Positions 3,679 through 32,379 of a DNA stretch of 33,723 nucleotides are shown in pieces. The stretch's first letter is position 1. Every line of letters starts with the position of its first letter. The notes under the pieces were generated by a model that was not told the DNA's origin, did no database searches, and saw only the letters and a program-made list of their open reading frames with translations. The position numbers and the translations under genes were made by a program. The stretch is from Blastocatellia bacterium (GTDB lineage Bacteria > Acidobacteriota > Blastocatellia > Pyrinomonadales > Pyrinomonadaceae): contig JACCVY010000138.1 of NCBI GenBank assembly GCA_013697915.1, forward strand, positions 1-33,723. Direction: 5' to 3'.

Positions 3679-6507
3679 CTACTTCACCTCGCTAATCAGC
3701 ACTGCATCGCGGGTGTGGCTGCCGCGGGCGAATGCAAGCTGGTGTCCATCGCGAGAGTAGGCAAAGTTATAGATCAGATCGGATTTGAAGTCGGTGATTT
3801 GCTTCGCTGTACTACCGTCCAGCGGCTGACTCCAAAGGTTCGACACACCGCCGAGCGTATTGATGTAGACAATCGCATGCCCATCGGGTGACCAGTGAAA
3901 GCCACGGTAGAAGAGGCTTTCATAAGCACTGGACTGACTCGTCACCGGCAAGTCAAACGTACGTACCGCAGCGCCGCTGCCGAATTCGATAACGGCGATC
4001 TTCGGACGGTTGGTCTGTTCGTCATCCAAAAAGTATGCAAGCAGTTTTCCATCGGGCGAAACCTGGGGATAACGCAGGTTGCCCCTGGCCACTATTTCCG
4101 TTTCAGTCCCGCCAGCGACCGAGAGTCTGCGAATGCCACCGGTAAACGGACTGTAAAGCAACCATTTTCCGTCCGGCGAAATTGAATGCGTCGCCACCCC
4201 GCCAACGCCCCGGGTCAACTGCTGCACTTCGCCGCCATCTAGACCGAGGCGAAAGGCCTGCAGGTTTATCATGCGACTGGAATTGAAGATGATAAAGCGG
4301 CCGTCAGGGGAAACTTCGGGCGCAAAATCATCCGCACTTCCGTCGGTCAACACCTTTGGATTGCTGCCGTCGGCGCCCACGATCCAAACGCTCGCTTTAA
4401 CGTTCACATTAGAGTCAAAGACCACTCTTCCGTCAGGAGTCCAGGCCAGGTTGTAGTGTCCCTCCTCCACATTCTTACTCGATGTGGCCGCGCGGGCGCG
4501 GCTTGCATCACCCTCGGGAGCTATCCAAATATTTGATCCGGGATCACCTTGCACGGATACAAGTGCATTCGAGTCGGCGGTCACGGCCAAACTGTAAAAG
4601 CCATACGAAGAGAGATCGTTTGTAACGCGACGAAATTCCCCTTGCGGGTACGATTGCTGCCAGATTTGCAACGCGCCCAGCACTTGCTCGCGCGCTGTGA
4701 ATACCAGCCCGCGACCATCGCTGAACCAGGCCACGCGTCCCACATAATCCCAGCGTCGCGAGGTGAGCGGACTAAGCTTGCCATCGGCAATCGAGATGAC
4801 TGCGGGGACCATATCGTTATCGCCGTAACCTATTGCCAGCATCGTGCCGTCGGGCGACCACGCCGGACCAGAGCCACTCAACCAGGCCGGCTCAGCGACC
4901 GTAATCAAATGCCGTTCGTTCGAGCCATCGGCGTTGGCCAGGAATAACTCGTCTTCCGGTTTCGTCATGTGAAAACGTCCGAAGGCGATCTGCTTGCCGT
5001 CAGGAGAGAGTGAGATTGGTTGCGAAACATTTGTCAGGATCTTTTTCGACGTGCCGCCTAACACCGGCACCTGATAGAGCGCGCCGCGAGGGTTTTGCTC
5101 ATCCAGACGCGTGTAGTAAACGTAGCTGCCGTCATTGGAAAACATGCTCGCATTCAACGCCAGGGCTTCGGCGGCAGGGACGATCGGCACGCGACTACCA
5201 GTCGCGAGATGTTTGGTCCACAGACTGCGCCGGCCGCTTTCCTCGAGCGAGTAAGCGATGTATTTCCCATCGGGCGAAACGGTAACACTTTCAACGTCGC
5301 CTTCCGCGGTCAGCCTCGTCAGCTTCACACTCTGGAACCGGACCAGCCCTTGTCCCTGAATTGCGTAGCGATAAACTACGTAAGCGATACCGCTGGCGAC
5401 AATAATCAACAACGCGAGCAAAGCGGCAGTCTTATGGCGTTTGATTTCGTTGACGACGTATTCGGCACTCGATGCGTGCGTTGAGAGAGACTCAGACGGC
5501 GCGCTGGTGGTCGCGCTTTGGTGAATCGACGCGCGGGCCAATTCGCCGGCTTCGCTTTTGGCAGGTGGCGTCTGGGTGATATCGAAGTCGGGGCTGGCGA
5601 TATCAGCGCTTGCAGGCATGTCTCGGCGAACTTCCTTTAACTCAATCGCCACGTCCTTGATTGTCTGGTAACGCTCGTCCGGATCTTTCGCTAAACAGCG
5701 GCGCACGATTCTTTGCAGGTCTACAGGTGCAGCGAGGTTGTAATTGCTAATCGGCGCCACGGGCTCACGGATGATCTTGTTCAACGTGTCGATCGTATCG
5801 GCGCCGGCAAATGCTTTGTGCCTGGTGATGGCTTCAAAGAGGATGCAGCCAAACGAAAAAATGTCCGAACGATGATCGATCTCTTTGGTTTTGCCTTGCG
5901 CCTGTTCGGGAGACATGTAGCCGGCGGTGCCGAGAATCATTCCCGGCTTGGAATGCTGCGGCAGGATCGCAGTCGCGACGCTGTCTATTCCCTGGCCGGA
6001 TGGCGTCGACGATTGCTGCGGCTCGACCAGCTTTGCTAAACCGAAATCCAGAATCTTTGCATAACCGTCATGCGTGATCATGATGTTGTCGGGCTTCAAA
6101 TCACGATGCACAATTCCGGCCGCGTGCGCCTTTGCCAGTCCTTCAGCAACGTGCTGCAAAGCCCTGAGTAATTTTTTCAGCTCGGTGCGTTCTTCGTGAA
6201 TCTTCTCGCGCAGAGTGACACCCTCGATTAACTCCATAGTGATGAAGTGAGTACCCCCGTGTTCGCTGATTTCAAAAATCTGGGCGATGTTGGGATGGCT
6301 GAGGGCGGCGGCAGACTTGGCTTCGCGAACAAAGCGTGCCATGCGATCGCGTTGAGCGGCCACTTCCGCCGGCAGGATCTTCAACGCAACTCTGCGTTCG
6401 AGTTTCTCGTCTTGCGCCAGGTACACCTCGCCCATGCCGCCCACGCCGAGCTGCGAAAGGATTTCATAACGACCGAGCTTGGTGCCTGGTGAAAGGGCGG
6501 AAGTCAT
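3679..6507 (-). CDS. Membrane Ser/Thr protein kinase with C-terminal TolB/PD40 beta-propeller (kinase 2)
   Basis: A 942-residue paralogue of the kinase at 613-3408. The kinase domain spans residues 14-292: glycine loop GVGGMGEV (21-28), Lys43, HRD (134-136), DFG (154-156) and GYMSPE (196-201). A Ser/Thr/Pro-rich linker (about 293-355) may carry autophosphorylation sites. One membrane helix follows (about 360-380), then six or more propeller repeats with VSPDGK-type turns to the C-terminus. All catalytic residues are present, so it should be active. It is separated from kinase 1 by 270 bp of repeats, so separate transcription is likely. Both ends of the gene are bordered by copies of one hairpin element (3547-3634 and 6685-6763). 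Signal and substrate are unknown. Confidence 0.94.
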   Translation of the reverse strand: MTSALSPGTKLGRYEILSQLGVGGMGEVYLAQDEKLERRVALKILPAEVAAQRDRMARFVREAKSAAALSHPNIAQIFEISEHGGTHFITMELIEGVTLREKIHEERTELKKLLRALQHVAEGLAKAHAAGIVHRDLKPDNIMITHDGYAKILDFGLAKLVEPQQSSTPSGQGIDSVATAILPQHSKPGMILGTAGYMSPEQAQGKTKEIDHRSDIFSFGCILFEAITRHKAFAGADTIDTLNKIIREPVAPISNYNLAAPVDLQRIVRRCLAKDPDERYQTIKDVAIELKEVRRDMPASADIASPDFDITQTPPAKSEAGELARASIHQSATTSAPSESLSTHASSAEYVVNEIKRHKTAALLALLIIVASGIAYVVYRYAIQGQGLVRFQSVKLTRLTAEGDVESVTVSPDGKYIAYSLEESGRRSLWTKHLATGSRVPIVPAAEALALNASMFSNDGSYVYYTRLDEQNPRGALYQVPVLGGTSKKILTNVSQPISLSPDGKQIAFGRFHMTKPEDELFLANADGSNERHLITVAEPAWLSGSGPAWSPDGTMLAIGYGDNDMVPAVISIADGKLSPLTSRRWDYVGRVAWFSDGRGLVFTAREQVLGALQIWQQSYPQGEFRRVTNDLSSYGFYSLAVTADSNALVSVQGDPGSNIWIAPEGDASRARAATSSKNVEEGHYNLAWTPDGRVVFDSNVNVKASVWIVGADGSNPKVLTDGSADDFAPEVSPDGRFIIFNSSRMINLQAFRLGLDGGEVQQLTRGVGGVATHSISPDGKWLLYSPFTGGIRRLSVAGGTETEIVARGNLRYPQVSPDGKLLAYFLDDEQTNRPKIAVIEFGSGAAVRTFDLPVTSQSSAYESLFYRGFHWSPDGHAIVYINTLGGVSNLWSQPLDGSTAKQITDFKSDLIYNFAYSRDGHQLAFARGSHTRDAVLISEVK

Positions 6508-6684
6508 AGGGGAACGGGTTGCAAGTCGAAGATTGAAGCTATTACAGCGGCGGCATTCTACTACGAGTTCGGGAGAAAAGTGCGCGGGTCGCCGTTCGGT
6601 TGCTGAAACGAGAACAGCAACGCCAGCATTAGCAGAATTTTCATGTGCGCAGGTTACGCAAGATTGTTCAAGGATGACAAGAGG

Positions 6685-6763
6685 CGGGAGAGGAAGGGAG
6701 AGAGGGCTTTAAGCTCGCCTAAGACCCTTCCCCTCGTTCCCCTTCCCAAAGGGAAGGAGATGA
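6685..6763. repeat. GC-rich double-hairpin repeat, copy 2
   Basis: Aligns along nearly its whole length with 3559-3634. It ends with the hairpin CCCCTTCCC-AAA-GGGAAGGAG (6739-6759), but the first hairpin has lost its left arm. It lies in the gap between kinase 2 and the small membrane protein gene (stop at 6772). The rest of the gap (6508-6684) shows no gene. Confidence 0.7.
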
Positions 6764-6771
6764 TAAGAACA

Positions 6772-7026
6772 TCACAGCCAATTCAGGCTCTTCAAAAGCT
6801 GCACGATGATGGCGATAGTGTTGATTAGAGTTGCGAGCGCGATGATCTTCGTCCAACGATTGTAAGCATTGGTGTTGCGTTCCTGGCTGCGCCAGAACAT
6901 TTCCTTGCGATAGTTAGCCGGCGTCCATTGCGCGTTCTCGATGCTGTTGCGATAGGCGGCTAGCAGCTCTTCGTCACTCAGATCAACTAGTGATTTCTTT
7001 TCAGGATTGCGGTTTTTCCTACGCAT
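6772..7026 (-). CDS. Small single-pass membrane protein of unknown function
   Basis: An 84-residue protein with a basic N-terminus (RRKNRNPEKK), a short acidic amphipathic part (about 12-30) and one hydrophobic segment near the C-terminus (about 62-82), so probably C-tail anchored. A good Shine-Dalgarno (GAGAGGA, about 7-8 nt before the ATG) supports it as real, which is notable because most neighbours lack one. I do not recognise the family. It lies between kinase 2 and the ABC exporter pair, on the same strand, with repeats on both sides. Confidence 0.7.
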   Translation of the reverse strand: MRRKNRNPEKKSLVDLSDEELLAAYRNSIENAQWTPANYRKEMFWRSQERNTNAYNRWTKIIALATLINTIAIIVQLLKSLNWL

Positions 7027-7164: not shown

Positions 7165-9039
7165 CTATTCACTAAACTGCATGTGACTGGCGGGACGAAT
7201 ACTCGATTCGTCTCCCTCCGGCAACGAACGAGTTTCATTGCGCGAGCCGTCGGCGTACTGCAATTTGTAGAGGCGCCAGTAGAGCCCGCGAATCCCGAGC
7301 AACTCCTGATGCGTGCCTTGCTCGCGAATCTCGCCGTGGTGCAGCACGATGATCTGATCGGCGCGCTGAATAGTCGAAAGTCGATGGGCCACCACGATCG
7401 AAGTGCGATTGCGCATTACGCGTTCAATGGCCTGTTGAATCAACTGCTCAGTTTCTGTGTCGATGGAACTCGTCGCTTCGTCAAGGATCAATATTGCCGG
7501 ATCAAACGCCAGCGCGCGCGCAAACGAAATCAATTGCTTCTGGCCTACCGAGAGTCCGGCGCCGCGCTCTTTCACTTCCGCTTCGTAACCGTTTTTCAGG
7601 CGCATGATGAAAGGCTCAGCCCGCACCTCGCCTGCGGCCCAGCGTACACGCTCGTCCGAAATATCTTTGCGGCCAAGGCGGATGTTGCCGGCAACCGTGC
7701 CGCTGAAGAGGAAAATGTCCTGCAAAACTACGGCAAAGTTCTCTCGCAGCGATTTCAGATCCCATTCGCGCAGGTCGACGCCGTCAAGCAAAATTCGGCC
7801 GCGCTGCACATCGTAAAAACGCATCAGCAGATTTGTGATAGTCGTCTTGCCGGAACCGGTATGGCCCACCAGCGCGATAGATTGTCCGGGTTCCACTTTG
7901 AATGAAACGTCTTTCAGCACCCAATCGTCGTCTTTGTAAGCGAACCACACATTTTCAAATTCAATGTGGCCTGTGACGCGCCCCGATTTTACAGGTTGCG
8001 CGGGTGAGGTAATGGCGATGGGCAAATCCAGAGTGCGAAAAATTCGATGCGAAGCAACTACCGCGGCTTGAAGCACGTTGTACTTATCCGAGATATCGCG
8101 GATCGGCTGAAAGAGAAAACTCGAATACTGGATGAAAGCTACCAACGCGCCCAGCGTCAGCACGGTATGCGCCGGCGTGTTGCTCATCACGCGATAGCCG
8201 CCGTACCAGATAATTAAGGCGATGCCGACGGCGCCGATAAAGTCGACGAGTGGGAAAAAGACAGCGTAGTAAAAAATCGTATCGATATTGGCGGTGCGAT
8301 AGTCGGCGTTAATCTCCTGGAACTTGAGCAGCGACTTTCTTTCCGCATTGAAAATCTGCACCGTCTGCGCGCCCGCAAAGTGCTCTTGCAGAAATGCGTT
8401 GATGCGGGCAATGCGAGTGCGCACCATGTCGTAACCTTTGCGAGCGCCTTTGCGAAACCAGGTAGTCGCGGCCCACAACATGGGCACAGTCAACAAAGTC
8501 ACCAGCGTCAGGCGCACGTCCATCCAAAGCATTACGCCAATGATAGCGACGATCATTACCAGATCGCCGAGCAGATCAGTGATGCCCGCGGTAAACAATT
8601 CGTTAAGCGAGTCCACATCACTGGTTAGTCGCGTCATGATGCGGCCGACCGGATTGCGATCGTAGTAGGCGACTTCCTGATGCTGCAGCTTGTCGTAAAG
8701 CTCGCGCCGCATATCAAACATCACGTACTGGCCTACCGTGTTGAGCATGACAGACTGAAAATATGAGAAGACCAGCCGCAGCAATTGGACCCCAGCGTAA
8801 AGGCCCACCAGTAACCTTAGTCCCGCGTACTTGCCGGGCAGGATGTACCAGTCGATCGCGTATTGAGTGAACTTTGGCTGCAGAATTCCCAGCAGATTCA
8901 GCATGAAGGTAAGCAACAGCGCAACGCTCAGCGGCCGAATGTATGGACGCAGGTAACGCAGCAGCCGGCGCGCGACCTGAAAATCGTACGTCTTGCCGAT
9001 GGCTTCTTCTTCGTGAAATTGTTTGGCTACGGTTGACAT
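7165..9039 (-). CDS. ABC exporter half-transporter, catalytic-Glu subunit of a predicted heterodimer
   Basis: About 624 residues. Six membrane helices lie in the N-terminal half (type I exporter fold, MsbA/BmrCD/TM287-288 class), followed by a nucleotide-binding domain with Walker [10 protein letters not shown], signature LSVGQ (not the usual LSGGQ) and Walker B ILILDEAT with the catalytic Glu. The start at 9039 (MSTVAKQF) is chosen because upstream in-frame starts run into the coding region of the partner gene; no Shine-Dalgarno is seen. The gap to the partner (stop at 9059) is 19 nt, so the two are co-transcribed with this gene second. Its weakened signature matches the partner's weakened Walker B, as in heterodimeric exporters with one degenerate site. 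Substrate cannot be deduced: drugs, lipids or peptides are all possible. Confidence 0.93.
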
Positions 9040-9058
9040 AGTTACGTTGACATCGTCA

Positions 9059-10804
9059 TTAGGAAGTCGCCGCCAACTCGTCTTCAAGCAACTGACGCTC
9101 ATGCAGGGCGGCATATTCGCCTCCACGCGCCAGCAGTTCATCATGGGTGCCGCGCTCGACGATGCGACCTTCATCGAGGACGCAAATCAAATCGGCGTCG
9201 CGCACGGTTGAAATGCGATGCGAGACGATTAGGCTCGTGCGGCCACGCATTACGCCGCGAAGTTTTCCCAGAATCTTTTCTTCAGTGTAGGTATCAACGG
9301 AAGACAGCGCATCGTCAAGAATCAAGATCTTCGGCTCGCGCAAAATCGCGCGTGCAATCGCGGTGCGTTGTTTTTGTCCACCCGAAAGTGTCAACCCGCG
9401 CTCGCCCACGAGCGTGTCAAAGCCATCGGGAAAGCCGGCCACGTCATCCATAAAGCCCGCAACATCCGCCGCCCATTCGATCTGACGCCGCTCCGCATGC
9501 TCGACTCCGAAAGCAATATTTTCGGCCAGCGTCTCGCTGAATAAGAACGTTTCCTGTGGCACGTACCCAATGCTGGATCGTAACTTTGCCAGGCGATAAT
9601 CACGAACAGACACACCGTCAACCAGCACCGTTCCTGCCGGCGCTTCAGCGAGCCGCGGTAGCAAATTAACCAGCGTCGATTTTCCACTGCCAGTCCGGCC
9701 AACAAAGGCCACCGTCTGTCCGGGTGCAATCCGCAGGTTGATGTCGTGCAGCACCGGCTCGTCATTTGATTTGTAAGCAAAGGTCAGATTGCGAAACTCG
9801 ATTTCACCTTCGCCCGGGCGTCTATCAAGAGCGTTGGGAGAGTCGGCAATCGCGGGCTCGATGGCGAGGATGGAGTTTATTCGCTTCAAGCTGGCGGTGC
9901 CACGCTGATAGAGATTGACGACGTACCCCAGGGCAATCAACGGCCAGATCAAGCGGAACAAGTACATGTTGAAAACTGTAAACTGGCCAACGCTGATTTC
10001 GCCGCGAATTGCGGCCGGCACTCCGACCCAGATGATCAGTACGAAACCCATGCCGATAAAAAACGTCATCAGCGGTCGCATCAAAGCGTCAATTCTGACC
10101 AGGCTCAGATTTTTCTCGGCATACTGACGGTTCAGTTCGCTGAAGGCGGAGATCTCCGCGTCTTCCTGCGCGTAAGCGCGTACCACCCGGACGCCGGTAA
10201 AGTTTTCCTGGGCCCGTGCCGTGATCTGTGAAAAGAACTCCTGAATCTTCTCAAAGCGAATGTGAACTTGCTGGCCGAAGAACTTTACTGTCAACGACAC
10301 CAGCGGCATCGTGACCAGCAACAGCAGCGTCAGATGCCAGTTGATCATAAACATCAGCGGCATCACGATGACGACGACGAAGACAGTTTGGAGCGAATAC
10401 ATGATCATCGGTCCGGCCAGTTGCCTGACCGCTGCCAGATCGTTCGTGGCCCGCGCCATCAGATCGCCTATGCGATGTTCCTGGAAAAAAGATTGCGGTT
10501 GATCGACCAGATGGGCATAGAAATCCTGTCGCAGGTCATATTCAACTTTGCGAGACATGCCGATCAGGATGCGGCGTTGCAGAAAGAGGAAACTGCCGCT
10601 GAGGACACTGGCGCCGAGCACCTTGGCGGCCGACAGCGTCAACAGGGACCAGGAGATTTGCGCCCAGTTGGCATCAACGGCTTGTCCGACGATCAAGGGA
10701 ATGTAGAGATTGAAGAGGACGCTGGCGAGAATGCAGACAATCCCGATGGTCAAGGAAGGTTTATAAGGAAGAAAATAGCGACCGAATTTTCGTAGATCGT
10801 CCAT
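9059..10804 (-). CDS. ABC exporter half-transporter, degenerate-site subunit of a predicted heterodimer
   Basis: About 581 residues with six membrane helices and a C-terminal nucleotide-binding domain: Walker [10 protein letters not shown], canonical signature LSGGQ, and Walker B ILILDDAL, where Asp replaces the catalytic Glu. In heterodimeric exporters such as TM287/288 and BmrCD, one subunit has just this change. The start is set at the ATG at 10804 ([11 protein letters not shown]); an in-frame TTG at 10828 would add eight residues. No clear Shine-Dalgarno precedes either. A 9-bp inverted repeat, AAAATCGCG (10814-10822) and CGCGATTTT (10863-10871), lies just upstream and could be an operator or leader hairpin. 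First gene of a two-gene unit with the exporter subunit at 7165-9039. Confidence 0.93.
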
Positions 10805-10939
10805 GCGCAAAAAAAAATCGCGAACCAATGAACCTTGGCTATGAAAGCGAAAGGTTATGATGCGCGATTTTGCGGCTGGACGCCAGAAGGGAAGCGGAGT
10901 TTAGCAGAACACTCGGGAGGACTGAGCTTTGTGAAACTA

Positions 10940-12595
10940 TCAGAGGCGCTGTAGTGCGTCGGTCGAGTCAAAGTCTACTAAGGAATGTTCGACGGGATCC
11001 GGAAGGATTTGAGTCGTTTCTTCGTCAGGCATGCTAACGCGATTGCGGCCTGCGCGTTTAGAGTTGTAGAGCGCGCGGTCTGCGGCTACCACCAGCGTGT
11101 CGCGAGATGAGGCATGCGATGGAAAGCTGGCAACGCCAAAAGAAGCTGTTGCCCGACCAAAGCCTGTGACTTCCATCTGTTCGATGCGCTGGCGCAGGCG
11201 TTCGGCGACCAGCATCGCGCCCTCGGCGTTTGCCTGAGGCAGAATTATTACAAACTCATCGCCGCCGAAGCGGGCCGCTGTGTCGACGGCGCGTAACTCT
11301 ACGCGCAGGTTATCTGCGAGCATGCAAAGAGCCTCGTCGCCTGCTTCGTGTCCGGCTTGATCGTTAATGTATTTGAAGTGATCGAGGTCGAGCATGATCA
11401 ACGACAGAGGCTGGCGCATTCGGGTCGCGAGGTGCAGGTCGCGCTCGAGCTGTAACTCAAACGAGCGCCGGTTGTAACAACCAGTCAAGCCGTCGGTCAG
11501 CGCCTGTTGCTGCATCTGAGCAAACAAGTGCGCCTGATTGACAGCAACCGCAAGCTGATCGGCCACAGTGTGCAGCAGCAGCAGTTCATTTTCTGCCCAG
11601 ATGCGCGACACATCATCGGAACGTACCAACAAGAGCCCGACAAAACTTCCCTGATAAATAAGAGGCACAACCGCATCGGCCAGCACTGGTCCGTCCTGCG
11701 AACTATCGCCATCTACCACGTAGGCTTGCGGCGATGCAGAGAGTCGCTCGCTGATGGAATCAACATCAGTCAGCAATAGCGCCCGCGCCGCATCATCGGC
11801 AAGATCATGGCGAAAGTAACTCTTTGTCATTTGTGGTCCCACGAGGGCGCCTTCTACTCGAACCGCGCACGATTGCACGTTCAGGGCACGACCAACTTCG
11901 TCGGCGGCAGTTTGCAAAACGCTATCGAGCTCGAGCGAGTTTCTAATCGCGGTCGCGAGGCGATTGACGGCGATCTCGCGTTCGGCTTGTTCCTGCAACA
12001 GTCTAGCGAGTTTGGTGGTGACGCCCAGGGTGAGTTGCAGCGATGTCGCTTTAGGCATCGAGGTGCGAACAGCTTTTGAGAAGGCGTTTGAATAAAAAGA
12101 ATGTTCGGCCGTCACGCGGGCCATCAAATACTCCAGCGCCGAATACACCACATCGGGCTCGAAGGTCCAGATGACTAAATCACGCGAGGTGTCGTCATTG
12201 TCTTCATTCTTAACCGAAGCCAGCAACGCTGAGAAGCGCGCGTCGGCAATCACTACAAAACGCTCATAAGTCTTATCCAGATCAGTGCGCTCAAAGACAA
12301 CCGACTTTGTATTCTCTTTGCCCCGGCTTAACACCAAGCTCGAAAGCGCATCCTGAGGACTGACCCACAAGAACAGATTCTTTGCCGCCTGATCAAGCTC
12401 CTTGATACGCGTGACGTCGCGCGGTGGACGCACGGCAGTGGTCGGCAAGCTTTCGACTATCAGGGCGCCCAAATTATTTTCGAGCACTACGTCTTCGAAG
12501 TAACGCTGAAGTTGCGCAATGGTAGAGCCCGCACAAGAGACGGGAGTCAGTTGTCGGGAATGTTGGGCCAGGAGGGAGTGGTACAGGGAGTACAT
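10940..12595 (-). CDS. Diguanylate cyclase with DICT-like and GAF sensory domains
   Basis: A 551-residue soluble signalling protein. Residues 1 to about 185 resemble the DICT domain found beside GGDEF and two-component modules (moderate confidence). A helical linker leads to a GAF domain (about 205-358), then a GGDEF domain (about 365-522). The catalytic set looks complete: LDLDHF for metal binding, Asn411 and Asp420 (FKYIND...GHEAGD) for guanine contact, and GGDEF at 444-448. An RxxD inhibitory site (Arg435-Asp438) sits five residues before GGDEF, so product inhibition by cyclic di-GMP is expected. No membrane segment. It starts its own unit, 160 nt downstream of the thioesterase cluster on the same strand; the gap 12596-12755 shows no gene. 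The signal sensed is unknown. Confidence 0.9.
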   Translation of the reverse strand: MYSLYHSLLAQHSRQLTPVSCAGSTIAQLQRYFEDVVLENNLGALIVESLPTTAVRPPRDVTRIKELDQAAKNLFLWVSPQDALSSLVLSRGKENTKSVVFERTDLDKTYERFVVIADARFSALLASVKNEDNDDTSRDLVIWTFEPDVVYSALEYLMARVTAEHSFYSNAFSKAVRTSMPKATSLQLTLGVTTKLARLLQEQAEREIAVNRLATAIRNSLELDSVLQTAADEVGRALNVQSCAVRVEGALVGPQMTKSYFRHDLADDAARALLLTDVDSISERLSASPQAYVVDGDSSQDGPVLADAVVPLIYQGSFVGLLLVRSDDVSRIWAENELLLLHTVADQLAVAVNQAHLFAQMQQQALTDGLTGCYNRRSFELQLERDLHLATRMRQPLSLIMLDLDHFKYINDQAGHEAGDEALCMLADNLRVELRAVDTAARFGGDEFVIILPQANAEGAMLVAERLRQRIEQMEVTGFGRATASFGVASFPSHASSRDTLVVAADRALYNSKRAGRNRVSMPDEETTQILPDPVEHSLVDFDSTDALQRL

Positions 12596-12755
12596 AGGTG
12601 AGCAGTCACCGAAGGGCTATTGTGTTATGGCAGCTTGCGAGGGCGAACACCGTTTGCGGGAGCGGCTCAACTGAAGGCCAAAAACATTTTACATAGATGA
12701 ACAATGTATGTCCAGCGAAATTCCTCGCAAAAAACTAAGGTTTTCCCTGATTCCG

Positions 12756-13175
12756 TCAATGTCTAATGTAAGTGCTGAGTGCTGTTGCGAGGAGAGTTCC
12801 CCGCTGATCGGTCACTTCAGCAGAAACAGTTAGGAGCCGACGGCCTTTTCGTAACACGCGAGCTGTCGCTCTCATTTGTCCTTCGCGAGCGGGACGGAGG
12901 AAGCTAACGGTTAGATCTACCGTGGTGACTCGTTCCTCGGGTTCGATCAAAGTGAGGATGGCAAACGCCATGGCCGTATCGATCAGCGAAGCAATTGCAC
13001 CACCATGGACCACGCCGTGGTTCTGGCTCAGCTCCGGGCGGACGGTCAGTGTGAGAGTCGCCTCGCCCGAAACAACTTTTTCTAGTTCAATGCCGAGCAG
13101 CCGAGCATACGGCACTGCCTCAATGGCGCGCTCGATTCGGTCCAGCCGCTCGGCCGGCAGGCTGGCCTCGGTCAT
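12756..13175 (-). CDS. PaaI-family hotdog thioesterase
   Basis: A 139-residue single hotdog domain predicted to hydrolyse acyl-CoA or aryl-CoA thioesters. The helix motif NHGVVHGGAIASLID (52-66) holds the His/Gly turn and the acidic residue (Asp66) that act in PaaI-type enzymes. Length is normal for the family. Its ATG overlaps the stop of the YbjQ-like gene (ATGA, 13172-13175), implying translational coupling as the last gene of a four-gene unit. The substrate cannot be read from sequence. Confidence 0.9.
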   Translation of the reverse strand: MTEASLPAERLDRIERAIEAVPYARLLGIELEKVVSGEATLTLTVRPELSQNHGVVHGGAIASLIDTAMAFAILTLIEPEERVTTVDLTVSFLRPAREGQMRATARVLRKGRRLLTVSAEVTDQRGTLLATALSTYIRH

Positions 13176-23398: not shown

Positions 23399-24520
23399 CT
23401 AGTTCACGAATCTCCGCAACTGCACGCTAATCGCAAAGCCGATGGCGATAAAGGTGGCAATCAGCGAAGCGAGTCCGGCGCTCATCAGGGGCAAGGGCAC
23501 GCCAATTACGGGCAGAATCCCCAACGACATCCCGACGTTGATGAAGATTTGGCAAGTCAGCCCACCAACCGTAGCCATGACGACCAACATGCCCATGCGA
23601 TCGGGTGCGCGTTTCGCGCCCGAGATCAAACGCGAAAGTAACAATACATAAGCCAGCAAAACAATAATGCAGCCGATAAACCCGGTGTTACCGGCCAGGA
23701 CTGCAAAAATGAAATCCGTATGCGGTTCGGGCAGGAACTTCAGGCTGCTCTGCGAATATGCGGACGAGTTGCCGGCGCCCAGCAATCCGCCTTCGCCCAC
23801 CGTCAGAATCGACTGCCAGGTGTTGTAACCAAAACCACGGCGGTCGGCTTTCTCAGGATCCAAAATGACGTTGATGCGTTCCTGTTGATAGTTCTTGACC
23901 AGGTGAGTCTTGACTCCGACCCAGTAAGCAAACGGGAGCAGTACAACGCCAAGCACGATTGCGGCGACAACAACACGCATTTTTATTGCCGACAAAAAGA
24001 GCACCACGATCAGTATCGGCAAATAGGTCAACACTTGGCCGACGTCGTGCTCGAGCAGAATCAACGCGATAGGCAAACCCAGGATCAAGCCGCCTATCGC
24101 CAGCTCCTTAAGCGTCAAGGCGCTGGTGCGATGTTTGCCAAAATACCGCGCCAGCATCATTGCGGTTGTGACTTTTACAAATTCGGAGGGCTGGAATTGT
24201 CCGATGCCCGGAACTCTGATCCAGGCGCGCTGACCGTTAATTTTCAGACCGATGCCGGGAATGAGAACAATCACCAGCAGCAGCAACCCAAAGATGTAGA
24301 ACGCGGGCGCGATGTTCAGCAGTCTGCGATAGTCGTTAAAAGCGACCGCCAGCATGGCGACGATGGCAATGCCAAGACCGATTAGTTGTTTGACCCAAAA
24401 GTTTTCAGTCGGTTGCGCGTAACGAATTTGAATGGTGCCAAAGCAGACGATGCCAATCGCCAGTATGGCCAGTAGCCAATCAAAATCGCGCAGCCCTCTT
24501 TTTTGAATTCTTGCAACCAT
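23399..24520 (-). CDS. rodA: Peptidoglycan glycosyltransferase RodA (SEDS family)
   Basis: 373 residues with about ten membrane helices. RodA polymerises lipid II into glycan strands with PBP2 during side-wall growth. Family marks include GINGQRAWI-type GLKINGQRAWIRVPGIGQFQPSEFVKV, GFGYNTWQSILTVGEGGLLGAG and PEPHTDFIFAVLAG. After the HTDFIFAV motif the usual acidic EE(L/F)G reads GNTG here, a departure from well-known RodA proteins. It is the last gene of the mre operon, 78 nt after mrdA; that gap is filled by two heptamer arrays reaching to 4 nt from the start codon, leaving no normal ribosome binding site. Confidence 0.95.
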   Translation of the reverse strand: MVARIQKRGLRDFDWLLAILAIGIVCFGTIQIRYAQPTENFWVKQLIGLGIAIVAMLAVAFNDYRRLLNIAPAFYIFGLLLLVIVLIPGIGLKINGQRAWIRVPGIGQFQPSEFVKVTTAMMLARYFGKHRTSALTLKELAIGGLILGLPIALILLEHDVGQVLTYLPILIVVLFLSAIKMRVVVAAIVLGVVLLPFAYWVGVKTHLVKNYQQERINVILDPEKADRRGFGYNTWQSILTVGEGGLLGAGNSSAYSQSSLKFLPEPHTDFIFAVLAGNTGFIGCIIVLLAYVLLLSRLISGAKRAPDRMGMLVVMATVGGLTCQIFINVGMSLGILPVIGVPLPLMSAGLASLIATFIAIGFAISVQLRRFVN

Positions 24521-24598: not shown

Positions 24599-26554
24599 TC
24601 ATTGATTTCGCGCGATCTCAGTCGGCGCTTTCTTTGGTTCAGTCTTGTCTTCGGGTTTGGGTGTCTTAGCTACCGGTAATGCGCCCGGCGGTTCTTCGTT
24701 GCGGGTCTTGCGATAGTAAACATCGTAAACGCGACGGACCGCTGGCGCCGCATGCAGGCCGCCGAAGCCCGAGTTTTCAATTAACGCCACCAGCGCGATT
24801 TCAGGTTTGTAAGCAGGAGCATAAGAAACGAACCAGGAATGGTCCTTGTTCTTTCCCGTGTCTTTGCCGAGTCCGACAACTTGCGCTGTACCCGTTTTGC
24901 CGGCGATGTCAAAGCCGGCCATGCGAATTGCCGCGGCCGTCCCGCCGTTATTGACGACGCCCCACATTCCCTCCACCACGAGATGATGAACGTCTTCTGA
25001 AATCGAAAGCTTTTTGGGGTTGGGCCGCGCGCTGTCAAGCGGTTGAAAAGATCGGCCCGCGCGCAGTTCGAATGGACCAGTTGCGTTCACCGGCCTTAAT
25101 TCTTTCAAAAAGTGAGGCACATAAAGATTGCCGCCTACCGAGATGCCGGCGATCGTGCGCAGCAATGCAATCGGAGTGATGATGTCATACACCTGCCCGA
25201 AAGACGCGTAGACGGTGTCTATGTCTTTCCATTCAGCATTATGCGGTTGCGTCTTTTGCTTGAGTTCCGGTGAAGGGGTCAGGCTGATAACTTCATTCGG
25301 GATATCAATCCCGGTTCGTCTGCCCAAATCAAACTCGTCCACCATAGCCATGATGCCGTCGATGCCCATCTTCAAACCAAGGCGGTAGAAATAACCGTCG
25401 CAGGATTTGGTAATGGCCGTCTTCAAATCGGGCGTACCATGATTGCCCATGCAGCGCGTGAACTTATTGCCCACTTGAATGCCGCCGCCGCAAACGAGGT
25501 TCGAGTGGTCCAATGTGATCGCACCTTGCTGCAAACCGGCAATGGCCATCGGCACCTTCCAGGTCGAGCCCGGGGGATAACGGCTTTGCACCGCGCGGTT
25601 GATCAGCGGTTTGTCCGGGTCATTCAGCAATGCCGCGTATTCCGCGCGGCCTTCTCGGGTGCCGAGGCGTTCCGAAAAAAGATTCGGATCGAACGTGGGC
25701 GCGGACGCCAGCGCCAGAACCTCGCCGTCATTAGGATTCATGACGACGATGACACCGCGCTTGGTGGCTGACGTTCGCAGTTGTTCTTCGGCAACTTCCT
25801 GTAAATCCAAATCGATCGTCGTAACTAAATCCTGTCCCGGCTGCGGCGCGACTGTTTCGATTTCATCCTGGATGCGCCCGCGACTGTCGACGATCACCTT
25901 TCGGTAACCGTCCCTGCCGCGCAGATAATCGTCGTAGGTCTGTTCCAAACCACTCTGACCAATAACATCGCCTGGCTTGAGTCCCTTGTCCTTATAGCTG
26001 TTCAGCTTCAACTGTTCCGGACCGACCTCACCAACATAACCAAGCACGTGGGCCAATAATCCGTTTGGCGGGTAACGACGTTGCGGCTGTTGCTCGACAC
26101 GCAGCTCCGGAAACTCGAGCTCATGCGCTTCGACCCAGGCGATGTCACCCGGCGTCGCATCTTGTTTCACCAAAATTGATTCAAAGGCCGGCTGGGATGC
26201 GATCTGTACAAAGCGGTCGCGCAGAATATCGCCGTCAACCGCTAACGCATCCGCGAGCGGCGCCACTAGTGTCAGCGGATTGCGGCCGCGCAGATCTTCA
26301 CGGGAAAGGATGACGCTATAAATAATGCGGGAGTCGACCAGCGGATGTCCGTCGCGGTCAAATATGACTCCGCGCGGCGCTGTTATGGGAAGCAGTCTGA
26401 TGCGCTGATTCTGCGCAATCTCGGCGTAGTACTGACCGCGCACCAACTGCAGGTAGTAAAGTCTAACGCCGAGCAACGCCAGCACCAGCACGACGAAGAT
26501 CTGCACCAGCCAAATGCGGCCACGCAGGTTTTGTGAAGAGTCTTCGAATTTCAT
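24599..26554 (-). CDS. mrdA: Penicillin-binding protein 2 (elongasome transpeptidase)
   Basis: 651 residues, a class B PBP. One N-terminal membrane helix (about 13-33), the dimerisation/pedestal domain with RGVIFDRDG (61-69), then the transpeptidase domain: Ser330-x-x-Lys333 in PPGSTWK, SCD (384-386) as the SxN/SxD motif, and KTGT (553-556). It cross-links peptidoglycan for lateral growth and partners with RodA. The C-terminal 30 residues are Lys/Pro/Glu-rich and disordered. Its ATG lies one nucleotide after the mreD stop, so translation is tightly coupled. Confidence 0.96.
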   Translation of the reverse strand: MKFEDSSQNLRGRIWLVQIFVVLVLALLGVRLYYLQLVRGQYYAEIAQNQRIRLLPITAPRGVIFDRDGHPLVDSRIIYSVILSREDLRGRNPLTLVAPLADALAVDGDILRDRFVQIASQPAFESILVKQDATPGDIAWVEAHELEFPELRVEQQPQRRYPPNGLLAHVLGYVGEVGPEQLKLNSYKDKGLKPGDVIGQSGLEQTYDDYLRGRDGYRKVIVDSRGRIQDEIETVAPQPGQDLVTTIDLDLQEVAEEQLRTSATKRGVIVVMNPNDGEVLALASAPTFDPNLFSERLGTREGRAEYAALLNDPDKPLINRAVQSRYPPGSTWKVPMAIAGLQQGAITLDHSNLVCGGGIQVGNKFTRCMGNHGTPDLKTAITKSCDGYFYRLGLKMGIDGIMAMVDEFDLGRRTGIDIPNEVISLTPSPELKQKTQPHNAEWKDIDTVYASFGQVYDIITPIALLRTIAGISVGGNLYVPHFLKELRPVNATGPFELRAGRSFQPLDSARPNPKKLSISEDVHHLVVEGMWGVVNNGGTAAAIRMAGFDIAGKTGTAQVVGLGKDTGKNKDHSWFVSYAPAYKPEIALVALIENSGFGGLHAAPAVRRVYDVYYRKTRNEEPPGALPVAKTPKPEDKTEPKKAPTEIARNQ

Positions 26555-26555
26555 T

Positions 26556-27101
26556 TCATCTTCTGCCCATTGAGCCCGTTACTCGTCGCGCGCCTTTGCG
26601 ACGAGAGGCAAAGGCGCGACGTTGTTGACGCCCCCCTTCAGTAAAAAGCGAATCCAGCAAATAGAGAGCAAACGTTCCCATGACCGTAGTGGCAATCAAT
26701 CGATAGGACATGGTTTGGACGAAAGGGGCGCTGGGAGCATATCCCAGGGACCGGTGCCAAAAAACATAGATCGCCGAGTCGAGCACCGTCGCGGCCGCCA
26801 GCACTGGAATGCGTAGCAGGGTGTTTTCAAGATTCACGCGCGTGGCCGCAAAATAAATCAAGTAGGCGGTCAAGGTCTTTGAAAAACCGCCGGCGCCCAT
26901 AAGTCCGCCGCCGGCCGCATCAACTGCGAGCCCGGCAATCGTTCCGACAAACAGCGCCTGCCAGGCGTGACGCTGCAAGGCGATATAAACAACCACCACC
27001 AGGGGAAAGTCAATATAAGAAAGTGGCGGCCACACCGCCCGCAACGACAATTGTAAAATTATGGCTAGCGCGAGAACAGCCGCGATCTTAAGTTGGGACA
27101 T
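26556..27101 (-). CDS. mreD: Rod-shape protein MreD
   Basis: 181 residues, an integral membrane protein with about five helices, linking MreC and PBP2/RodA to the membrane. MreD sequences are poorly conserved; the call rests on hydropathy, length and position between mreC and mrdA. The C-terminal tail (about 158-181) is strongly basic and partly encoded by a perfect-arm hairpin at 26584-26621. Upstream, a heptamer array begins 4 nt from the start codon and takes the place of a ribosome binding site. Confidence 0.9.
   Translation of the reverse strand: MSQLKIAAVLALAIILQLSLRAVWPPLSYIDFPLVVVVYIALQRHAWQALFVGTIAGLAVDAAGGGLMGAGGFSKTLTAYLIYFAATRVNLENTLLRIPVLAAATVLDSAIYVFWHRSLGYAPSAPFVQTMSYRLIATTVMGTFALYLLDSLFTEGGRQQRRAFASRRKGARRVTGSMGRR
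26584..26621. repeat. Strong hairpin inside the 3' end of mreD
   Basis: Arms CGTCGCGCGCCTTTGC (26584-26599) and GCAAAGGCGCGACG (26608-26621) pair over 14 bp with a 2-nt bulge and an 8-nt loop. It encodes part of the basic MreD tail and lies about 30 nt before the mrdA start, so it could modulate mrdA translation or mRNA stability, or be an in-frame REP-type insertion. Confidence 0.7.
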
Positions 27102-27223: not shown

Positions 27224-28126
27224 TCATTGCTTTTTAGTCTTCTCTACGTTTGGCAGGGTCTGTTCGGGTGCAGGCCGCTGTGGCGCATGATAAAGCAAAA
27301 CCGCCACTTCTTTTAATTGGTCCAGGTTGGCCCCGGGCCTGATGAAAATCTGGTGCGGTTGTGTGGCGGTGCCACGTTTCACATCGACAACTTCTCCGAC
27401 ATTCAGTCCGGGCGGATAAATTCCATCCTGGCCCGTCGTCAGTATCGAGTCACCAACATCCACCTTCTGTAAACCGGAAACGTAGCGCATCTCGATAAGC
27501 CCGCTCTCGCCTGTGCCGCGAACCGAGCCGAGCGCTCCGGAGGCGCCGAGTTGGCCCACGATCGCGCCGGCCGCAGCTTTCTCGTCGGTGACCATCATCA
27601 CCTGCGCTGTCCAGGGACTAACGGCAATAACGCGTCCTACGATTCCACCGGCGGTTATGACCGGCATATTCAACGCAACACCGGAAGAGGTGCCTCGGTC
27701 GAGCGTCACTGTGTTGAACCACACTGAAGAATCGCGCGCGATAACATGCGCTGTTATCTGATCGTAACCTGTTTGTTGTTTGAGATTGAGGAGACCTTTG
27801 AGTCGCTCGTTTTCTTCCGCCGCTTGTCGCGCGTTTTGCAGTTGTAACTCAGTCGCAAAAAGTTTTTCTTTCAATTGCGCATTTTCAGTAGCCGCACCGC
27901 GGAAGTTAATGATCTCGCGAATAAAACCACTGCCGGCGCCGCTGGCTCGCGATGAAACGCCCTGGACCGGCGAGGCCAGTGCCTGAATCCAAACACGAAA
28001 CAACCGCTGCTTGGTGGTATTGTCGCGCGCATCGACAGCCATGATTACCAGGTTGGCAAGCAGTAGCGCCACCAGCCACAGTGGCGCCTTTTGGCGAATT
28101 TCTCTTTGGGTGCGGGTGGCGGCCAT
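27224..28126 (-). CDS. mreC: Rod-shape protein MreC
   Basis: 300 residues. Short cytoplasmic N-terminus, one membrane helix (about 15-31), a coiled coil (about 78-112: NAQLKEKLFATELQLQNAR), then the periplasmic beta-barrel domain with VIARDSSVWFNTVTLDRG and the later VGDSILTTGQDGIYPPGL. MreC self-assembles and activates PBP2/RodA. It sits between mreB and mreD as in most rod-shaped bacteria. No Shine-Dalgarno is visible; the C-terminal 20 residues are Pro/Lys-rich. Confidence 0.95.
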   Translation of the reverse strand: MAATRTQREIRQKAPLWLVALLLANLVIMAVDARDNTTKQRLFRVWIQALASPVQGVSSRASGAGSGFIREIINFRGAATENAQLKEKLFATELQLQNARQAAEENERLKGLLNLKQQTGYDQITAHVIARDSSVWFNTVTLDRGTSSGVALNMPVITAGGIVGRVIAVSPWTAQVMMVTDEKAAAGAIVGQLGASGALGSVRGTGESGLIEMRYVSGLQKVDVGDSILTTGQDGIYPPGLNVGEVVDVKRGTATQPHQIFIRPGANLDQLKEVAVLLYHAPQRPAPEQTLPNVEKTKKQ

Positions 28127-28253: not shown

Positions 28254-29300
28254 TCACATGCCGCTGGTCATCGTATTCTCCCACTTGACGCGTTTGAGCA
28301 GGTCAAAGTCGGAAAGCATTTTGCCGGTGCCGAGTACCACTGACGCCAGCGGATCGTCAGCAAGAGAGACCGGCAAACCAGTTTCAATCGAAAGACGTTT
28401 GTCCAAATTCTTTAACAACGCGCCGCCGCCGGTCAGCACAATGCCGCGTTCGACGATGTCGGCGGAGAGTTCGGGAGGCGTTCGCTCCAGCGCTACGCGC
28501 ACGGCGTTGATGATCGTCGAGACTGAATCAGCCAATGCTTCGCGCACCTCTTCATCCGTCATCGTGATCGTCTTTGGTATTCCTTCAATCAAGTTGCGGC
28601 CGCGCACTTCGTATGACAGTGGCTCTTCAAGCGGGTAAGCCGAACCGAGTTCGATCTTGATTGCTTCAGCAGTACGCTCGCCAATCAGCAAATTATATTT
28701 TCGTTTGATGTACGAGATGATCGCTTCGTCCATTTCGTTACCGGCAACGCGCACCGCGCGCGAGTAAACGATGCCACTCAAACTGATCACTGCGATGTCG
28801 GTCGTGCCGCCGCCGATGTCAACCACCATGTTGCCGTGGGGCTCGGTGATCGGCAGGCCGGCGCCGATTGCCGCCGCCATCGCTTCTTCAACCAGGTAGA
28901 CTTCCGAAGCCTTGGCGCGATAAGCCGAATCTTCAACCGCTCGTCGCTCGACTTGAGTGATTTCGGACGGTATGCCGATTACAACGCGGGGACTGACCCA
29001 CGTTTTGCCGTTGTGCGCTTTGCGGATGAAGTGCTGAAGCATCTTTTCAGTTACTTCAAAGTTTGCGATGACGCCGTCCTTCATGGGACGAATGGCAACG
29101 ATGTTGCCGGGCGTGCGGCCGAGCATGTCCTTCGCGTCGCGGCCGACAGCCTCAACCTGATTGGTGACCTTATTGATCGCGACGATCGAGGGTTCGGAAA
29201 CTACGATGCCGCGACCTTTGGCATAAACGAGGGTGTTGGCCGTTCCCAGATCAATTGCCAGATCGCTGGAAAACAGACTAAAAATCGATTTAAGAGCCAT
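28254..29300 (-). CDS. mreB: Actin-like rod-shape protein MreB
   Basis: 348 residues, normal length. Nucleotide-binding motifs are intact: phosphate 1 [11 protein letters not shown] (16-26) and phosphate 2 [16 protein letters not shown], then [15 protein letters not shown] near the C-terminus. It forms membrane-bound filaments that guide RodA/PBP2 cell-wall synthesis. The N-terminus ([13 protein letters not shown]) is amphipathic enough for membrane contact. First gene of mreB-mreC-mreD-mrdA-rodA; GGAAGTG lies upstream of the ATG at rather long spacing. Confidence 0.97.
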
Positions 29301-29515: not shown

Positions 29516-31111
29516 TCAAGAAAAGGCCTTTCCTTCGTCCGCGTCCAGAATAGACACCGGCACGCCGCCCTCACTCGCCGGTTTTTCTTCCCGGCTTCGC
29601 AGCAAGGGTGAAAAGCGCACGCAGTTTTTGTTGGCCGCCTTTGCTTCGTACATGGCGGTATCGGCGCATGAGATTAAGTGTTGCGGCGACGAAGCATGCT
29701 CGGGGAAAGCGGCGACACCAAAGCTGGCTGTCAACGATAGTTTCAAGTTCCTGCCTGCATTGAAGGAATGTTTCCGAATTTTTTCGCGAATGCGTTCAGC
29801 CACCGTCCCGGCCAGTTCGATTCCCGTATCGGGCAGCACAATTACAAACTCATCGCCACCATAACGAGCAACTGCGTCCGTATCGCGTATTGATGAAAGA
29901 ATCACACCCGCCATCTCCATTAGCACGTGCGAACCGGCGAGATGTCCGTGCGCATCGTTGACGCGTTTAAAATCGTCAAGATCCAGAAACAGCGCGGCCA
30001 CGCTGGTGCCATAACGGCGGGCGCGGCGAATCTCGTTCAAAAGAAACTGGCGCAGATAGCGAGCGTTGTGAAGTTTGGTGAGATCGTCGGTTTGCGACAG
30101 CCGTTCAGCTTCGCCTATGCGCACCGCATTTGCCAGGGCGGATGCAATCGGCAACGAAAGAGCCTCAAGCAAAGCGAGCTCGGATTTCTTAAAGGAGCGC
30201 TGCTCCCGTCTACCTTCGAGCACACCCAGAATGCGTTCGCCACAAATCAGCGGAATCGCGACGATGTATTCGCCGCGCTCCTTCTTTCGAATCGTGCCCA
30301 TGCCGGCGCCGGCAAGTCTTGCTGCTTTAGATTCATTGCCAGTGCTTACGGCTTCTCCCGCGAGCAACACTTCACGCAAGTCATCACGCAACTCAGCGAT
30401 TGCTTTCTCTGCGGGCTTGAGCGAGGCGATGGCTTCCAACGTTGCCGCCTCGGGACCCTTCTCATCGGCGAGCAGGTAGATGGTCCAACGATCGGCTTTA
30501 GCCAGCGCAGTCAGTCCCGTCAGCGCCACCTGGGCTGCATCGCTTTGATCGCCGATGAAGTGCAGCGAGGAAACTAAATCAAAGGCGGCCCGCAAGCTTG
30601 CCGCTTTCATCTTCGCGGGCAGTGAGGCCAGTCCCGACTCAGTAACCGGCCTGACCATTTCCGGCAGTTTCAATTCTCCGGTGGCGCCGTGCCCTTCGAT
30701 TTCATGCAAAATTGCCGGCAATTGCGCCGCCTTGTCGGCAATCGCGCGAAAGCCAAGTCGTTTCAGCGTTGCGCCATCAAGACCGCGCACACTGAAACCG
30801 TGAAGCCCCATTTGGTGCCGGCGACAGGCAATCACCGGTGTTCCCGGCCAAAACATTTTTGCGTGATCGATGGCTGCGTGAAGTTCGACGGTGTCAGCCC
30901 CGGCAATCACCTCATGAAGAACTGCCAGTGGCGCTTCCTGGAGTTTTTCGCCCGTGCTTTCGATTTCACGATGGCGAATTAGCGCGGCTTCAGCTTCGAC
31001 GTCGCGCAAGCCTTCGATCAATGTTTGCACGCCCGCCAGGCGCAGGGCCTCAATCAGCTCATACGCCGGCGCTTCGTGCGCATCAGTTAAGAGGATGACA
31101 TGTCTGGGCAT
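29516..31111 (-). CDS. GGDEF protein with Ser at the guanine-contact position (candidate Hypr-type cyclase)
   Basis: 531 residues, soluble. Residues 1 to about 135 look like a degenerate receiver-type domain (HVILLTDAHE), about 172-332 a GAF domain, about 337-510 a GGDEF domain. DLDDFKRVND and GGDEF (418-422) are intact, and an RxxD inhibitory site (409-412) is present. In place of the usual GHxxGD the sequence is GHLAGS: Ser394 stands nine residues after Asn385, exactly where PleD and the other GGDEF protein in this window (10940-12595) have Asp. In Hypr GGDEF enzymes of Geobacter this Asp-to-Ser change allows ATP use and cyclic AMP-GMP synthesis. It follows the FecR gene after 17 nt, so the two are co-transcribed. 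Confidence 0.9.
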   Translation of the reverse strand: MPRHVILLTDAHEAPAYELIEALRLAGVQTLIEGLRDVEAEAALIRHREIESTGEKLQEAPLAVLHEVIAGADTVELHAAIDHAKMFWPGTPVIACRRHQMGLHGFSVRGLDGATLKRLGFRAIADKAAQLPAILHEIEGHGATGELKLPEMVRPVTESGLASLPAKMKAASLRAAFDLVSSLHFIGDQSDAAQVALTGLTALAKADRWTIYLLADEKGPEAATLEAIASLKPAEKAIAELRDDLREVLLAGEAVSTGNESKAARLAGAGMGTIRKKERGEYIVAIPLICGERILGVLEGRREQRSFKKSELALLEALSLPIASALANAVRIGEAERLSQTDDLTKLHNARYLRQFLLNEIRRARRYGTSVAALFLDLDDFKRVNDAHGHLAGSHVLMEMAGVILSSIRDTDAVARYGGDEFVIVLPDTGIELAGTVAERIREKIRKHSFNAGRNLKLSLTASFGVAAFPEHASSPQHLISCADTAMYEAKAANKNCVRFSPLLRSREEKPASEGGVPVSILDADEGKAFS

Positions 31112-31128: not shown

Positions 31129-32379
31129 TTAACTGCGTCGGCCACCGCGCGAAAGCGATAAGCGGTATTGACTGCTATTGCCTCGCGGGTCTTCTGCGTC
31201 AACTACGATTTCCTGCATTCCCGGCGCGGCGGTAATTTGCAACTGAAATGAACCGTCGGTGGCTACCAGCGTGTCGCGGCCCGCGGCGCGAATGGTGTTG
31301 CCGGCTTCCGAGTGCCCGCGTACCAAATAAACATTGCCGCCGAGCAACTCTGCGGTGAGATTTGAAACTGTAACGCGCGAGCCGGTGCCGGGCGGCGCGA
31401 TGATGAATTTTTTCGGATCACTCCAGTCACTTGTTTGACCGCTCGAAGCCGTGGCGCGCACGCGCCAGAAATACGTGCCGGGCCGCAGGTCGCTGGCTGT
31501 GAATTCATTCGAAGCGAGCTGGTCGCGTTCAATCACTTTCCCGTCAGCCACGAAAAAAGGAGAAGTCGCAACTTCAACGCGATAGAACGACGCAGTGCCT
31601 GACTGTGGCCGCTGCCATTTCAAAGAAATGTTTGCCGCACCATTGTCGCCAACAAAAACACGCTCGAGATCGCGCGGCTCAGACGGCGCGGGAATGTCCA
31701 GCAACTTTTGCGGCCGCGAAAGGGTGCCCGACGGATTTACTGATACATACTCGCCGCCGTGCAAAGTGGTTTTCTCACCTGAGCGATTTGTAGTTTCAAT
31801 CGCACCGTTGTTGACGCGAATTTCTTCCGTCCCTTCAGGATTCACGCCAAAGCTGGCGCCCGTCTGTTCGCCCAGTTTGTTCTTGGTCTTTGGCGTCTCG
31901 ACTACATTGTTTGTGCCTTCGGGTTGCTGCTCGGTGCGAACGTACATTTGTCCGCTATCAACCACGACGTGCACATTGGTTTTCTTGCCATCGTCTTCGC
32001 TGGCATTGTCACGAATGATGATCGTGCTGTTGGGACGAACGACAAGCGTTGAGCCGTCGGCCATGCCCACGCGTGCGCGACCACTCGCCAGCGTTTGCAC
32101 CGTGTCGCCCGGATAGAGTTCGGTATCGCCGCCGGGCGTGATCGTCTCGCGCGTAGCGGCGCGAATGACGCGCACTTCACCTTCAAACGAAATGAAGCGC
32201 GCGCCCGCCGGAGGTTTCGTTCCCGCGCCAACATTCCGGAGTGGGTTGCCATACTTCCAAACGTAAAGCGCGCCTCCGCCGGCCAGCCCGCAGAGAGCAA
32301 CGACAAGGATGATGAGGTAGACGATGCGCTTTTGGACTACCCACCAATCAAAAACAAAACGACGGGATTTTTTGGCCAT
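31129..32379 (-). CDS. FecR-domain membrane protein with FN3 and C-terminal Ig-like domain
   Basis: 416 residues. A basic N-terminus, one membrane helix (about 19-40), then an extracytoplasmic part: a FecR-type beta-helical domain (about 62-225, with SFEGEVRVIRA, LYPGDTVQTLASGRARVGMADGSTLVVRPNS), a fibronectin type III domain (about 240-330, with LRPGTYFWRVRAT) and a C-terminal Ig-like module (about 338-412). Stand-alone proteins of this type, without a sigma factor neighbour, are usually thought to bind cell-wall or envelope ligands rather than act as FecR iron regulators. It is immediately upstream of the GGDEF gene, suggesting an envelope-signalling pair, which is inference. Confidence 0.85.
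   Translation of the reverse strand: MAKKSRRFVFDWWVVQKRIVYLIILVVALCGLAGGGALYVWKYGNPLRNVGAGTKPPAGARFISFEGEVRVIRAATRETITPGGDTELYPGDTVQTLASGRARVGMADGSTLVVRPNSTIIIRDNASEDDGKKTNVHVVVDSGQMYVRTEQQPEGTNNVVETPKTKNKLGEQTGASFGVNPEGTEEIRVNNGAIETTNRSGEKTTLHGGEYVSVNPSGTLSRPQKLLDIPAPSEPRDLERVFVGDNGAANISLKWQRPQSGTASFYRVEVATSPFFVADGKVIERDQLASNEFTASDLRPGTYFWRVRATASSGQTSDWSDPKKFIIAPPGTGSRVTVSNLTAELLGGNVYLVRGHSEAGNTIRAAGRDTLVATDGSFQLQITAAPGMQEIVVDAEDPRGNSSQYRLSLSRGGRRS

Follow-up and report, generated by a model that had tools for sequence, protein, structure and literature searches.

Enzymes of the Hypr type, GGDEF-domain cyclases that make 3',3'-cyclic AMP-GMP (cGAMP), are known to act in metal respiration by Geobacter and in the gliding of Bdellovibrio. 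They account for only 0.17% of GGDEF domains (PMC9140294). Three features set them apart from canonical diguanylate cyclases: Ser at position 348, a GGDEF motif with Asp and not Glu in the middle, and any residue but Arg at cross-dimer position 304. At this last position Tyr, Ser, Ala or Gln goes with predominantly cGAMP and Arg with more cyclic di-GMP (c-di-GMP) (PMC6456294). Here we describe P0001, a GGDEF protein encoded in a 33,723-nucleotide stretch of a Blastocatellia genome (contig JACCVY010000138.1; the window, below, is this whole stretch), which probably joins the Hypr family as a new member and whose gene is followed by the rod-shape genes mreBCD, mrdA and rodA.

GacA of Geobacter (GSU1658 / Gmet_1914, PDB entry 6d9m) shares with P0001 the Ser (Ser347/348 in GacA), the GGDEF motif, an Asn (Asn339) and the I-site Arg, as well as a GAF domain ahead of the GGDEF domain, as given in the PDB title. 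The two proteins differ in that GacA has Tyr304 and a receiver-GAF-GGDEF architecture, whereas P0001 has Ala350 and an N-terminal receiver that is only possible; the P0001 gene, unlike that of GacA, adjoins mreBCD-mrdA-rodA, and the Geobacter pathway includes a GEMM-Ib riboswitch, a type not found in the genome of P0001. Two further Hypr enzymes bear on the comparison: Bd0367 of Bdellovibrio, whose input domains differ from those of P0001, and Cabther_A1065 from Chloracidobacterium, which is probably of the same class as the window. Like P0001, Bd0367 has Ser in place of Asp and a non-Arg residue (Met) at the second selectivity position; it makes cGAMP, c-di-GMP and cyclic di-AMP (c-di-AMP), with cGAMP detected in vivo, and controls gliding exit from prey (PMC9140294). 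Cabther_A1065 has, unlike P0001, Arg at the second position, makes more c-di-GMP (PMC6456294) and probably stands outside the mreB-linked family described below. Finally, GacA and GacB of Myxococcus xanthus are Hypr cGAMP synthases according to a citing passage of PMC8844925.

P0001 carries the Hypr signature

The protein and its parts lie on the minus strand as follows.

29516..31111, minus: Hypr GGDEF protein P0001, 531 aa, N-terminal domain, GAF and GGDEF (open reading frame, Pfam, PDB match)
30632..31111, minus: N-terminal region, residues 1-160 (conserved in close orthologs)
30128..30541, minus: GAF domain, residues 191-328 (Pfam)
29624..30094, minus: GGDEF domain, residues 340-496 (Pfam)
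30062..30064, minus: Ala350, second selectivity position, corresponding to GacA Tyr304 and to Arg in canonical cyclases (alignment)
29930..29932, minus: Ser394, corresponding to GacA Ser347/348 and PleD Asp344 (alignment to 6d9m and PleD)
29876..29887, minus: I-site RDTD, residues 409-412 (motif reading, alignment)
29846..29860, minus: GGDEF motif, residues 418-422, with Asp, not Glu, as middle residue (motif reading)
29792..29794, minus: Arg440, second I-site Arg (motif reading, alignment)

A sequence-only reading of the window had proposed P0001 as a Hypr candidate because its GHxxGD motif reads GHLAGS while the remaining motifs are intact. Motif positions and alignment agree with this: GHLAGS spans residues 389-394 and ends in Ser394, and the metal-binding Asp377 (within DLDDF, 377-381), Asn385, the GGDEF motif and the I-site are all preserved. 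With Ala350 added to Ser394 and GGDEF, P0001 has all of the sequence determinants described for Hypr enzymes (PMC6456294), and the candidacy is further supported by its kinship, GacA being its nearest relative by sequence and, with modest support, by tree. The best PDB match is the Hypr domain of GacA (6d9m) at 153.6 bits, followed by PleD at 113 bits. A quick maximum-likelihood search with both trait columns masked placed P0001 and GacA within a clade of 52 rows (48 Ser, 2 Gly and 2 Asp) with a support of 85 in the Shimodaira-Hasegawa-like approximate likelihood-ratio test (SH-aLRT), and gathered the relatives of P0001 from its own phylum into a subclade of 39 (SH-aLRT 89). As this support is moderate, shared ancestry of P0001 and GacA is likely, not proven.

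Throughout an alignment of GGDEF domains from the window's own genome, its relatives and named organisms, Ser combined with GGDEF is never paired with Arg at the second position, whereas most domains with Asp have Arg there. Proteins read later do show this pairing at the cross-dimer position (L372, L374, L376, L377 and L379, all unlinked to mreB), and by the rule of PMC6456294 these should make more c-di-GMP.

The N-terminal region of P0001 gave no Pfam or PDB match and is possibly a degenerate receiver, a comparison with receivers by hhalign returning a probability of 18%. Single-sequence structure prediction of P0001 gave no usable model, at a predicted local distance difference test score (pLDDT) of 35.

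The selectivity residues are conserved

Orthologs of P0001, full-length or nearly so and 37-89% identical, have Ser at the selectivity position in every case, with the GGDEF motif, both metal Asp residues, Asn385 and the base residues among the invariant columns, and with a non-Arg residue at the second position in all close orthologs read. Wider homologs have Ser throughout save two with Gly and one, unlinked to mreB, with Thr. Judging from this presence in all orthologs and nearly all homologs, Ser at the Asp position is not a matter of chance. Among the mreB-linked GGDEF proteins read (n=61), 59 carry Ser, two Gly and none Asp, and none has Arg at the second position. High-scoring matches in other families that are unlinked to mreB (n=13) comprise 12 with Ser and one with Thr, so that Hypr enzymes are common in the phylum. 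The two Gly proteins, L224/L264 (G063) and L226/L266 (G078), are mreB-linked and have Ser at the second position.

The Hypr gene precedes the rod-shape genes across the phylum

The genes around that of P0001 are listed here in the direction of transcription.

31129..32379, minus: FecR-domain protein with an N-terminal membrane segment and an Ig/FN3-like domain, ending 17 bases upstream of the Hypr start (Pfam, synteny)
28254..29300, minus: mreB, the next gene downstream of the Hypr gene, 215 bases away (synteny)
27224..28126, minus: mreC (translation, synteny)
26556..27101, minus: mreD (translation, synteny)
24599..26554, minus: mrdA, encoding penicillin-binding protein 2 (PBP2) (translation, synteny)
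23399..24520, minus: rodA (translation, synteny)

This one-strand gene order, [FecR]-Hypr-mreB-mreC-mreD-mrdA-rodA, recurs across the phylum, probably Acidobacteriota (class Blastocatellia) given that other GGDEF proteins are akin to a Chloracidobacterium locus (L153). We drew 20 loci of the same class and 20 from other families of the phylum from the best-scoring Hypr matches. The Hypr gene shares the strand of mreB and lies upstream of it in 20/20 same-class loci, adjacent to mreB in all but G034, where about 4 kb separate the two, and a FecR match precedes the Hypr gene in 18/20. Among the loci from other families the same placement was found in 18/20 (the exceptions are G127 and G137), with a FecR-like match of 23-28% identity upstream in 16/20. 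A broader sample covered 396 genomes from the phylum. Positions for both a GGDEF gene and mreB were listed in 69 of them, and in 54 of these 69 the GGDEF gene immediately precedes mreB in the same orientation. The gaps in those 54, measured between matched stretches and thus slightly exceeding the true intergenic distances, range from 15 to 348 bases, often within about 60, with a single one of 1170. Promoter and terminator scans returned site numbers no higher than in shuffles.

This gene order suggests a possible link between a cGAMP signal and cell shape. The sequence-only reading had looked in the other direction, to co-transcription with a FecR/FN3 envelope protein, and had proposed surface sensing. 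A FecR-domain gene does adjoin on the same strand, 17 bases away; the C-terminal part of its product matches Ig/FN3-like Pfam families and not FN3 itself. Surface sensing had this neighbour as its sole basis, and mreBCD-mrdA-rodA downstream is the stronger and more conserved neighbour.

Literature searches combining mreB or mreBCD with GGDEF or diguanylate cyclases returned no report of a linkage, although the 2016 Hypr discovery paper lay outside the search and an earlier mention is possible, and searches on Acidobacteriota and cGAMP returned nothing on a Hypr-mre linkage. As far as the literature searched shows, the phylum-wide placement of Hypr genes before the rod-shape operon is new, as is the missing GEMM-I receptor in the window's own genome.

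Two further loci were noted alongside these. In L284 (G017) mreB comes directly after the FecR gene, the Hypr gene having been cleanly lost. L139, from Corallococcus interemptor, which belongs to the same order as Myxococcus xanthus, has a Hypr GGDEF gene (Ala/Ser/GGDEF) near mreC-mreD-mrdA-rodA (5887-6987 and 8797-12948), with an opposite-strand peptidyl-prolyl isomerase-like gene between them and, unlike the window, no mreB match in the locus. From this arrangement, the Hypr-mre neighbourhood may predate one phylum.

The window contains one other GGDEF gene.

10940..12595, minus: GAF-GGDEF protein with Asp and Arg at the selectivity positions (Pfam, motif reading)

Its Asp, already pointed out in the sequence-only reading, is accompanied by the canonical Arg (NRRS) at the second position. 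By these residues the protein is a canonical diguanylate cyclase, outside the Hypr-mre system.

Dinucleotide turnover and receptors in the genome

The window's own genome encodes seven GGDEF proteins, one with Ser/GGDEF (P0001), one with Ser/GGEEF and five with Asp, together with ten PilZ-domain matches and six HD-GYP domains above cut-off plus one weak match. No EAL protein was found in this genome, so HD-GYP enzymes must account for the breakdown of dinucleotides. As cGAMP is degraded by enzymes of this class, PmxA of Myxococcus among them (PMC8844925), its hydrolysis here is plausible.

The search for GEMM-Ib-like riboswitches that had been suggested as a check found no GEMM-I element above threshold in this genome (best 17 bits, E 1.6, against a gathering score of 35), a draft that is 97% complete, so that a gap is possible. 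The cGAMP receptor would therefore not be of the Geobacter type, and a new one is called for. An A at position 20 makes the Geobacter aptamer cGAMP-selective (PMC6456294). Across the set of relatives, GEMM-I was above cut-off in 26/59 genomes; almost all of these elements carry G at position 20, as in the c-di-GMP form. The A form was present only in G029 and G039 and therefore does not generally match the presence of Hypr genes; with none in the window's own genome, we rejected GEMM-I as the receptor.

The A-type riboswitches themselves are L066 (G029:C133:4692-4777) and L061, L081 and L092 (G039). The G029 element precedes the gene of a secreted Ig-repeat protein, and one G039 element precedes a pilM-like gene with its neighbours. 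Among the proteins read from G039 none is of the Ser/GGDEF type, but the FHA protein with Ser/GGEEY is present.

Proposed mechanism and alternatives

We think it probable that P0001 is a GacA-type Hypr dinucleotide cyclase in an ancestral [FecR]-Hypr-mreBCD-mrdA-rodA arrangement, with its signal tied to cell elongation. The active form would be a homodimer in which each GGDEF domain holds one nucleotide; Ser394, in place of the guanine-reading Asp, would allow ATP to be accepted as well as GTP, and Ala350 would remove the guanine-favouring cross-dimer Arg. The main product would be 3',3'-cGAMP with some c-di-GMP, and as Hypr enzymes are promiscuous, a mixture of the two may result. Feedback inhibition would take place at the intact I-site, and control would be exerted through the GAF and N-terminal domains. 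From the ancestral gene arrangement we infer that the signal is coupled to the elongation machinery, being made together with it or responding to its state, and the enzyme may be made in proportion to that machinery or to its envelope partner. Because no GEMM-I riboswitch was found in the genome, the signal would act via a protein receptor.

Several points weigh against this proposal. D-to-S mutants of canonical enzymes are inactive or still produce c-di-GMP (PMC6456294), so Ser alone is insufficient for Hypr activity; the grouping with GacA reaches only SH-aLRT 85 in a quick search; and we found no assayed enzyme from the P0001 clade in the literature. Several relatives without a Hypr gene keep the mre operon, and the gene is therefore not essential for having rod-shape genes. 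In the window itself, 215 bases separate the Hypr gene and mreB, and co-transcription across them is presumed.

Other explanations concern either the product or the meaning of the gene order. P0001 could be promiscuous, with c-di-GMP as its main product in the cell and cGAMP a minor by-product, in keeping with the c-di-GMP made by characterised Hypr enzymes, Bd0367 among them, and with a genome that shows no cGAMP receptor of a known kind but has ten matches to PilZ, a domain typical of c-di-GMP receptors. We consider this unlikely, as the cross-dimer Ala places P0001 with enzymes reported to make predominantly cGAMP, Arg going with more c-di-GMP, and the five other GGDEF proteins with Asp can supply c-di-GMP. 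Less probable still is a catalytically inactive GGDEF protein that senses nucleotides, or c-di-GMP through its I-site. Replacement of the residue that contacts the base would be compatible with a loss of catalysis, and the I-site is intact in 40/40 loci read for it; however, GGDEF proteins that have degenerated usually no longer carry an intact GGDEF motif, whereas in the orthologs of P0001 the motif does not vary, nor do the two metal Asp residues and Asn385, and the Ser is fixed, not varied.

A more serious challenge, to which we give not far short of an even chance, is that P0001 is a Hypr synthase but the mreBCD linkage is an old gene order without functional meaning, the signal serving an unrelated pathway. 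Relatives in which the mre genes persist without a Hypr gene fit this, as do the 4-kb separation in G034 and the other Hypr genes of the phylum that are unlinked to mreB. Against it, many families share this order and strand, with short distances between the genes, and all mreB-linked GGDEF proteins read keep the Hypr signature or Gly. Going beyond our preferred reading of P0001 as an elongation-linked Hypr cyclase, we propose only tentatively that throughout the phylum a cGAMP synthase forms a working part of the rod-shape operon, with cGAMP coupling an envelope or cytoplasmic signal to MreB/PBP2/RodA elongation via a non-riboswitch receptor. With Hypr enzymes throughout the phylum, fixed selectivity residues and the gene directly before mreB, this phylum would be a main home of bacterial cGAMP signalling, and the linkage opens a direct test of whether cGAMP controls cell shape and peptidoglycan synthesis.

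A second GGDEF family with Ser at the selectivity position

FHA-GGDEF proteins also have Ser at the selectivity position, but with GGEEF or GGEEY; they are conserved in most relatives, two of them with Asn.

G000:C178:33855-34346 (L006, L342): FHA Ser/GGEEF protein of the window's own genome
L304-L323, L331-L335, L341, L343-L346: FHA-GGDEF orthologs

One protein of the FHA family, L333 (G049:C1:1263000-1269500), combines Arg, Ser and GGEEY. It may be Cabther_A1065, which is reported to be active, and would in that case run counter to the rule that Ser with GGEEF gives no activity. According to PMC6456294, Ser or Thr occurs in GGDEF domains exclusively with GGDE[F/Y], and GacA with Ser and GGEEF is inactive.
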